From positions 1 to 36,113 of the forward strand of contig CAMZLM010000084.1 in assembly GCA_947311485.1 (NCBI GenBank): 36,113 nucleotides of DNA. Direction: 5' to 3'. Numbering within the stretch: position 1 is the first letter of the stretch; the number at the start of each line of letters is the position of its first letter. The stretch comes from an uncultured Paracoccaceae bacterium (GTDB lineage Bacteria > Pseudomonadota > Alphaproteobacteria > Rhodobacterales > Rhodobacteraceae). Made by a program: the position numbers and the translations under genes. Below the pieces are notes generated by a model. That model was not told the DNA's origin. It saw only the letters and a list, made by a program, of their open reading frames with translations, and ran no database searches. Below are positions 20,194 to 22,374 of this stretch, in pieces.

Positions 20194-20676
20194 TCAATCA
20201 TCTTCGAAATAGCCGCGGTCCGCGCCACGATGACAGGCAACGCAGTTGGCTTTGGAGCCGGCTTTCTTGAAGGAGCGGGCGCTGACTTCCCATTTGTTGT
20301 GCTGGCGCTGCCACCATGGCATTTCGGTGATGCGCATCGGGGTTTCCCCGCTGGAAACACCGCGCAGAAGCCAAGTGCGGCCGCCGCCGGTATCGGCTGC
20401 GTTTGCTTCAAGCCATTTGCGGATATCCTTGGCGTCCTTAGCATCCAGTGACGCATCTTCGCCAAAGTGGTTGTCGAGGTTTTTCATGATTTTGCGCCAA
20501 GAGCGTTTCGGCAGGAAAGAAGCCGAAAATGCCATGTGGCAGGCGGAACATTCTTGTTTGGCCAGCGGATGATTGACTGGCGGGAAGTATTCGTCGCTAT
20601 CGGCCATGGCTGTAGAGGCAAAACTGAACAGGCCAAAGGCGGCCATAGCGAAGATGGATTTTGTTTTAAGTGTCAT
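20194..20676 (-). CDS. Diheme cytochrome c (DHC family)
   Basis: Signal peptide; CXXCH motifs CSACH and CVACH; NHFGEDASLDAKDAKDIRKWLEANAA. Located next to SHP, as described for DHC. Confidence 0.92.
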   Translation of the reverse strand: MTLKTKSIFAMAAFGLFSFASTAMADSDEYFPPVNHPLAKQECSACHMAFSASFLPKRSWRKIMKNLDNHFGEDASLDAKDAKDIRKWLEANAADTGGGRTWLLRGVSSGETPMRITEMPWWQRQHNKWEVSARSFKKAGSKANCVACHRGADRGYFEDD

Positions 20677-20691
20677 AGGAGCGGTCCTTTC

Positions 20692-21087
20692 TTAGATGCT
20701 CAGCAAATAGGCAATGATATCGGCTTTTTCTTTGGCCGAGCATTCGCGCCCGAGAACCGATTTGCAGTTGCGACGAAACCATTTCGCCGCCTTCTTTTGA
20801 TCGGTCAGGCGGCTGCGATTGGCGGAAATTGCCATTGGATCAATGGGTTTTCCAACGCGGGTCCGGCCCATGCCCTTCAGGTTGGTGGTGTGGCAGGTGA
20901 TACAGCTCGGGGTGTCCGGCTTGCCGCCTGTATGTTTGCTGGTGAACAGTTTTTTGCCGGCAGAGGCCGATGCTTTGGACCCTGCTTGGGATTCAAAACC
21001 TTTCATCAGTTTTTGGGGGGTTGTATTGCCGGCGGCTACGGCGCTGGCAATCAACAAGGGGGCAATGACGAGGGCAATGCGTTTCAT
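20692..21087 (-). CDS. Sphaeroides heme protein-like cytochrome c (SHP; DUF1924 family)
   Basis: MKRIALVIAPLLIASAVAA signal, then 112-aa mature protein with CITCH and RRNCKSVLGRECS. Residue 88 of the predicted mature protein is Asn, matching the recalled SHP Asn88 heme ligand. Confidence 0.93.
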   Translation of the reverse strand: MKRIALVIAPLLIASAVAAGNTTPQKLMKGFESQAGSKASASAGKKLFTSKHTGGKPDTPSCITCHTTNLKGMGRTRVGKPIDPMAISANRSRLTDQKKAAKWFRRNCKSVLGRECSAKEKADIIAYLLSI

Positions 21088-21091
21088 GGGG

Positions 21092-22249
21092 TTACTCCTT
21101 GGGGATGTTGATCTGGAACGGGCTGAACAGCCCGGCTTCGGCGTCTTTGTGGCATGCAACGCAGTTTGATTTGCTGCGGATCCCTTTGCGCTCAAAGATT
21201 GTTTTATCTTCCAACAGCTCTTCGTGGCGTTCCTGCCAGAAAGGTGTGTCGGTGATGGAACCGGGCAGGCCATTGGCCTTGGGGGCCAATTTGAATACAT
21301 GCGCCGGGCGTGTGTCTGCGGTTTCTGCGGCATTGGCCATCAACCAATCGCGAATTTCCGTGGTGGTTTCCTCGTCCAGCGATGCATCCTCGCCAAAGTG
21401 GTCCTCGAGCGTATTTACAATCAGTTCCCAGTCTTTGGCCGGTAACAGGCTTGGATGATAGGCCATGTGGCAATCGGAGCATTCCTCGGCCACAAGCGGA
21501 TTTATCTGTGCCACGGGCATATTTGCGGGGATGGTCCTTGTAAGCATGGCCAGAACCAGCCCGCCGCTGCCGAGGGTCAGGGCAGCGGCGACCACTGCCA
21601 AAACGGTCTGTGCATTGCGCTTGGGAGCAATGACATCCTCGGCAGAGCGGCGTTTTTCACCTGTAATCATGGCCTGCGCCAGATTTTCCTTGTGGCGACG
21701 ACTTTCGAAAACAACTCCGCCTACGTGTGCGGTAATGAGGACCAACAATAAAATTGCCAATACTTCATGAAGCTCGCCGAAAATATCGCCCACAGCATAG
21801 GGAACCAGTGCCGCCAGGGGGCCGGTTTTCAATACACCGCCCAGCAGAAAAGTTCCCGTTGCCGTGATGCCGAGTATGGTTGCGATCAGGGCCAACACCA
21901 TGGCCCCCCCCAACGGGTTGTGGCCGATATGACGTTTGTCGGTGCCGTTTCGCAGGGCATTGAAATAGCTTAGGATAGCGCGTGGTCCCATTACAAAGCT
22001 GGAAAAGCGTGCATAGGTACCACCGGAAAACCCCCAGATAATTCGGGTAATCAACAAGGCCGCCGCGGTTGCGCCGCTCCAGACGTGAAAATTGATCCAG
22101 CTGGCATCGAGAATAAATCCCGTCGTGCCGGCAATCAGAATGGTTGCGACCAACCCCCAGTGAAACAAGCGCACAAAGCGATCCCAAACCGGGATAAGGG
22201 CCGGAGTATCGGGTTGCGTAGAGGAGGGATTCTGCACTGGTTTACTCAC
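21092..22249 (-). CDS. Cytochrome b561-like membrane protein fused to C-terminal diheme cytochrome c domain
   Basis: N-terminal b561 module (VWDRFVRLFHWGLVATILIAGTTGFIL...LHEVLAILLLVLITAHVGGVVFES); C-terminal CSDCH and CVACH with EDHFGEDASLDEETTTEIRDWLMANAAET. Confidence 0.93.
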   Translation of the reverse strand: MSKPVQNPSSTQPDTPALIPVWDRFVRLFHWGLVATILIAGTTGFILDASWINFHVWSGATAAALLITRIIWGFSGGTYARFSSFVMGPRAILSYFNALRNGTDKRHIGHNPLGGAMVLALIATILGITATGTFLLGGVLKTGPLAALVPYAVGDIFGELHEVLAILLLVLITAHVGGVVFESRRHKENLAQAMITGEKRRSAEDVIAPKRNAQTVLAVVAAALTLGSGGLVLAMLTRTIPANMPVAQINPLVAEECSDCHMAYHPSLLPAKDWELIVNTLEDHFGEDASLDEETTTEIRDWLMANAAETADTRPAHVFKLAPKANGLPGSITDTPFWQERHEELLEDKTIFERKGIRSKSNCVACHKDAEAGLFSPFQINIPKE

Positions 22250-22302
22250 ATCAAAGAAGCGCCGGGAGTCGGTCGCGTGATTGCTGTTCTAGAGCAGGCC
22301 AA

Positions 22303-22320
22303 ATGACAGAAAGCTGACAG
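22303..22320 (-). promoter_or_regulatory. Pho-box-like direct repeat (CTGTCAG-CTTT-CTGTCAT) upstream of the cytochrome b/SHP/DHC cluster
   Basis: Two 7-bp CTGTCA(G/T) repeats at 11-bp periodicity on the minus strand, 53 bp upstream of the ATG at 22249. Matches the classic PhoB box layout. Confidence 0.6.
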
Positions 22321-22336: not shown

Positions 22337-22374
22337 AAAAAATGGCGTAACATCTGCATGCTACGCCATTTTTC
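22337..22374 (-). terminator. Rho-independent terminator downstream of metK (potentially bidirectional)
   Basis: AAAAATGGCGTA (22338-22349) and TACGCCATTTTT (22362-22373): perfect 12-bp inverted repeat with T-tract. Confidence 0.88.

Follow-up and report, generated by a model that had tools for sequence, protein, structure and literature searches.

A promoter box predicted to tie the SHP cytochrome operon of Rhodobacteraceae to the SK1 sensor-regulator trio

A cytochrome operon between metK and trmB

The 36,113-nucleotide stretch analyzed here (the window) carries three consecutive cytochrome genes on its minus strand, between metK and trmB. The first (CytB/mDHC; 21092..22249) encodes a membrane cytochrome b561 fused to a C-terminal diheme cytochrome c domain, a protein of 385 residues with a GTG start and two CXXCH motifs. 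Pfam profiles (PF01292 and PF09626) assign Ni_hydr_CYTB to residues 21-197 (2.7e-24) and DHC to residues 254-375 (5e-33). The second gene (20692..21087) encodes SHP (sphaeroides heme protein, DUF1924), with 131 residues and one CXXCH (PF09086, 1.2e-33), and the third (20194..20676) a soluble diheme cytochrome c (sDHC) of 160 residues with two CXXCH (PF09626, 2.2e-37). These searches bear out an initial annotation that had read a b561/diheme fusion, an SHP, and a separate diheme cytochrome from this strand, with five CXXCH motifs among them: two in the fusion, one in SHP, and two in sDHC. The order fusion, SHP, sDHC, all on one strand, is kept in 16/16 family loci compared. Gaps of 4 nt between fusion and SHP and 15 nt between SHP and sDHC suggest that the three genes are co-transcribed, as judged from spacing only.

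SHP has a signal peptide at residues 1-19 and a mature form of 112 residues. Cleavage after SAVAA, the resulting length, CITCH at 43-47, and Asn88 (codon 20769-20767) had all been predicted and are confirmed here. A phmmer comparison with R. sphaeroides SHP (PDB 1dw0, 112 residues; 2.3e-34) is ungapped, and N88 of the window protein therefore falls on N88 of 1dw0. The same alignment bears on the objection that the Asn might lie away from the distal heme position, and it places Asn88 in register. W84, N88, C89, and C97 are invariant in an alignment of 16 SHPs, and the window protein has both positions of the Cys89/Cys97 disulfide. It scores 115.8 bits against the DUF1924 profile (curated cut-off, 22.5) and is 45-63% identical to its relatives.

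The two diheme proteins are similarly well conserved. Among 17 fusions, the b561 histidines H30, H55, H161, and H175 and both mDHC CXXCH motifs are invariant, and two b hemes are expected. The heme motifs of sDHC are likewise invariant in the alignment, and the protein matches R. sphaeroides DHC (PDB 2fw5) over nearly its full length at 1.7e-40. An AlphaFold model of the fusion has a pLDDT of 74.5, with the diheme part poorly modelled; its best PDB matches are the cytochrome b of formate dehydrogenase-N (1kqf_C) and DHC (2fwt). The likeness to the SHP (1dw0-1dw3) and DHC (2fw5/2fwt) entries over nearly full length was compared by sequence only. Gene identities and heme ligands are thus assigned from matches far above chance.

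Meyer et al. described the CytB/mDHC-SHP-sDHC operon of Rhodobacteraceae in 2010, together with the Asn ligand of SHP and the reduction of SHP by DHC; in that account the SHPs of R. sphaeroides and A. vinosum bind O2, a path from quinol is proposed, and an NO dioxygenase activity is cited as reported (PMC2909971). The window operon agrees with the R. sphaeroides/Rhodobacteraceae type in gene order, fusion, heme number, SHP length, Asn88, Trp84, Cys89/Cys97, and the absence of adjoining regulator genes, but differs in its placement between metK and trmB. The path from quinol through b561 and DHC to SHP put forward in the initial annotation agrees with the one published for this operon type, and since both operon and path are already in PMC2909971, that reading was right but not new. 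Its identification, ligand, and electron path stand; what it missed is the regulatory side, namely the metK terminator, a promoter box, and an unlinked regulatory trio. The new part would be this regulatory one: a promoter motif that appears to tie the SHP operon to a sensor-regulator pair encoded elsewhere in the genome. Neither the box nor the unlinked partner is described in the account of Meyer et al. (PMC2909971).

A likely intrinsic terminator of metK (22337..22373, minus strand), with a AATGGCGTA/TACGCCATT stem and a T run, probably separates the SHP operon from metK; its loop is longer than the terminator scan accommodates, and it was called by reading the sequence. Upstream of metK lies a SAM/SAH riboswitch (RF01727, 23573-23620, minus strand, 58.8 bits), and trmB retains a promoter-like stretch common to the window and G060, a genome of another genus. 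The metK-trmB site is empty in G121, of the window's genus, and holds an SHP operon in the same place in G060 (L036, L025), a pattern that may reflect one old insertion followed by losses, or a swap via the flanks. Few genomes of the family have SHP (12 strong matches among 397), and it is absent from seven others of the window's genus; in the phylum sample it is more frequent (86/399). A scan of named genomes with SHP gave three loci only.

A direct-repeat box and its co-occurrence with the SK1 trio

Upstream of the fusion gene, on the minus strand, we identified a predicted regulator box, CTGTCAGCTTTCTGTCAT (22303..22320), with two half-sites in an 11-bp period, and 11 nt downstream of it a -10-like hexamer, TAGAAC (22286..22291). 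The 3.07-Mb genome contains a single exact CTGTCA-N5-CTGTCA, at the SHP promoter; as it was in the window that the box first came to attention, this uniqueness is partly post hoc. The looser GTCA-N6-TGTCA has 18 copies, of which 16 lie inside open reading frames of at least 60 residues and the other two at the SHP and SK1 promoters; a control pattern with an N7 spacer has 28 matches. With a weight matrix trained on relatives, the window box ranks fifth in 96 kb of the window genome and not first, because that matrix is too GC-rich.

We scored the box out of 12 over the 200 bp upstream of the SHP operon in 17 SHP-bearing family genomes. Nine of them, the window's included, score 10-12, a level that no more than 1 in 200 shuffles reaches, and the remaining eight score 6-9. 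Among the spacings considered in these 17 promoters, the 5-nt half-site gap alone stands out. The window promoter has one pair of half-sites, and relatives have up to six. No strong common motif was found in the SHP promoters of genomes lacking SK1. Two of these (L030 and L049) have a ACTTTGGTTTAT-like sequence in common, weaker in L026 and L029, which may mark another regulator or may be chance.

The SK1 trio consists of orf1 (a PepSY protein), an OmpR-type response regulator, and a histidine kinase. The window genome has one clear SK1, on contig C54 (42%, 6.5e-92; next best, 1e-12), beside which lie a regulator at 60% (next, 39%) and Orf1. The C54 kinase contains GLYWQ and RSRSLWD, the SK1 signature of Meyer (YWQ, RSRSLWD); its regulator is of OmpR type, and its Orf1 resembles PepSY relatives. 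NCBIfam gives no equivalog name for SK1, the regulator, or Orf1.

Across a 24-genome search, SK1 is present in 9/9 SHP genomes with the box and in 0/8 without it, and it was not found in the seven SHP-less genomes of the window's genus. A sensor-domain profile run on 80 genomes repeated the pattern, with SK1 at E < 1e-60 in 1 of 43 SHP-less family genomes, in a census that covers part of the family sample. For the association of box and SK1, the Fisher p is 4e-5; counting a single genome from each genus, it becomes 6e-4. One further genome, G180, has the SK1 trio and the box (L224); SHP was not found there.

The promoters of the orf1-RR-SK1 operons contain the same element. All nine promoters read have the downstream half-site pair, seven have a four-half-site element in an 11-bp register, and in eight a hexamer starting with TA follows 11 nt past the last half-site, as TAGAAC does at the SHP promoter of the window. 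In R. sphaeroides (G051), whose SHP matches 1dw0 at every one of 112 residues, SHP lies on a 3.19-Mb contig and the SK1 trio on a 0.94-Mb contig, which we take to be chromosomes I and II, and the element is found at both promoters; that of SHP consists of CTGTCAGGCGGCTGTCAC and a four-half-site element. The placement of the trio fits RSP3510/RSP3512 on chromosome II, and its regulator would be encoded by the gene flanked by these two. Meyer et al. named these genes and stated that their functional relationship to SHP was not known (PMC2909971); our literature search found nothing on RSP_3510-3512 beyond that 2010 paper.

Box and SK1 could also have been inherited or transferred together as one block with no regulatory link, as might be expected from the six of nine box-bearing genomes in which the trio immediately precedes the SHP operon. 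We consider this unlikely. The other three (the window's, R. sphaeroides, and G557) keep the box although SK1 lies apart from SHP. The box also fronts the SK1 operons themselves, with a constant 11 nt between it and a hexamer that starts in TA, and on a tree of the fusions, where the window pairs with G060 (which has neither box nor SK1), the pattern needs at least two independent changes. Meyer et al. found no regulator genes adjoining the Rhodobacteraceae operons and took this as a sign of a possibly different function in that family (PMC2909971). Because the trio adjoins the SHP operon in six of nine box-bearing genomes, the lack of neighboring regulators described in 2010 does not hold throughout the family.

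Control by the redox system PrrBA/RegBA alone, as suggested for R. sphaeroides, where PrrBA is reported to regulate SHP partially (cited in PMC2909971), strikes us as quite improbable: it leaves the box and its link to SK1 unexplained. Such control is compatible with regulation by SK1.

The box outside the family and likeness to known sensors

In the exact form seen in Rhodobacteraceae, the motif does not carry over to other families. There, a related pattern, CTGAAM-N5-CTGAAM, is present at 11/12 or better in 14 of 18 SHP clusters with a linked SK1 or Orf1, in 0 of 6 with SK2-type regulators, and in 3 of 13 with no linked regulator, the classes having been assigned by tblastn. All three box-bearing clusters in the last group have an SK1-type sensor elsewhere in the genome. 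Counting against the link, such a sensor is also present for four of eight tested clusters that lack both the box and a linked regulator.

The textbook Pho box is CTGTCAT-N4-CTGTCAT, to which CTGTCAG-N4-CTGTCAT of the window is closely similar, and PhoB might accordingly switch the operon on under phosphate starvation. We regard this as very unlikely, as the box tracks SK1 exactly across the 17 family genomes, recurs at the SK1 promoters, and outside the family still tracks SK1 with its half-site changed to CTGAAM. Since the exact motif is single-copy in the window genome, it is not found in that form at pst or pho genes.

The modelled SK1 sensor domain (pLDDT 90) is closest to PhoQ sensor domains (E 2e-3, TM about 0.5), a weak match from which it is predicted to fold like PhoQ's. 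The best NCBIfam score of SK1 is also to PhoQ, with all PhoQ and PmrA scores below their curated cut-offs. Both PhoPQ and FeuNPQ have a small periplasmic protein encoded beside the pair, as in the SK1 trio. Read on its opposite strand, the phylum-wide box is GTTCAG-N5-GTTCAG, which agrees with the candidate FeuP motif of S. meliloti, TTCA-N7-TTCA (PMC3616915), a likeness by motif alone. UzcRS of Caulobacter (Zn/Cu/U) is another alphaproteobacterial two-component system tied to metal stress; it was rejected as the SHP regulator, as its motif, CATTAC-N6-TTAA (PMC8963506), differs from the box.

A published data set points to a possible signal. In A. vinosum, Alvin_0013-0026 are induced together on pyrite versus sulfide, and the SHP gene Alvin_0022, up 7.1 log2 units, is the second most induced (PMC11267869, Table 1). 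This block encodes Czc-type efflux, a diheme peroxidase, FieF, DHC, b561, DUF1924 (SHP), DHC, a regulator, and a kinase; PMC11267869 gives Alvin_0022 as DUF1924 only, and the SHP/SK1/Czc block is not named as such there. Together, the PhoQ-like sensor and the pyrite induction, the latter from one data set, point to metal or envelope stress as the signal. The pyrite growth was phototrophic and, as we read it, anoxic, and anoxic growth would argue against an O2-requiring role of SHP in that setting.

Proposed regulation and role of SHP

We propose, with a probability of about 0.7, that the SHP operon is regulated in trans by the SK1 trio via the box. SK1 would sense a periplasmic signal through its PhoQ-like domain and phosphorylate the OmpR-type regulator, which would bind CTGTCA-N5-CTGTCA beside a weak -10 and activate both its own operon and that of SHP, the trio being encoded elsewhere (in the window genome, on C54). 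Electrons would then pass in the window organism from quinol to the two b hemes, the fused diheme domain, the soluble diheme cytochrome, and SHP. Upon reduction, Asn88 would leave the SHP iron and a small ligand would bind, such that stress-induced, quinol-driven reduction of SHP would be followed by binding and turnover of that ligand. The last step taken alone, a role of SHP in stress-induced reduction or detoxification of a periplasmic ligand, we offer tentatively.

Reverse flow, in which b561 would act as a CybB-like superoxide:quinone oxidoreductase fed by SHP and DHC, is highly improbable: CybB belongs to the same broad b561 superfamily and sequence cannot tell direction, but the fusion model is nearest to the quinone-linked diheme cytochrome b 1kqf_C and then to hydrogenase-1 cytochrome b (6g94_B), no CybB appears among the matches listed in that structure search, and DHC is the reported reductant of SHP (PMC2909971).

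What switches SHP on, a long-open question, becomes testable through the motif and SK1 as a pair. If regulation by SK1 holds, many Rhodobacteraceae SHP operons, that of R. sphaeroides included, may have the same type of regulator as the rest of the phylum. A broader and rather doubtful reading, at which the A. vinosum pyrite response hints, would make SHP a main output of SK1 as a widespread PhoQ-like envelope sensor, acting through one conserved direct-repeat box in Rhodobacteraceae and distant Pseudomonadota alike, and also across replicons; SHP would then be a metal- or envelope-stress protein workable without oxygen, and not an O2 carrier or oxygenase.

At two loci (L031, 3226-4160; L224, 8670-8999), another PepSY-like gene lies divergent from the SK1 trio, followed in L031 by a second b561. 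These genes may be further targets of SK1.
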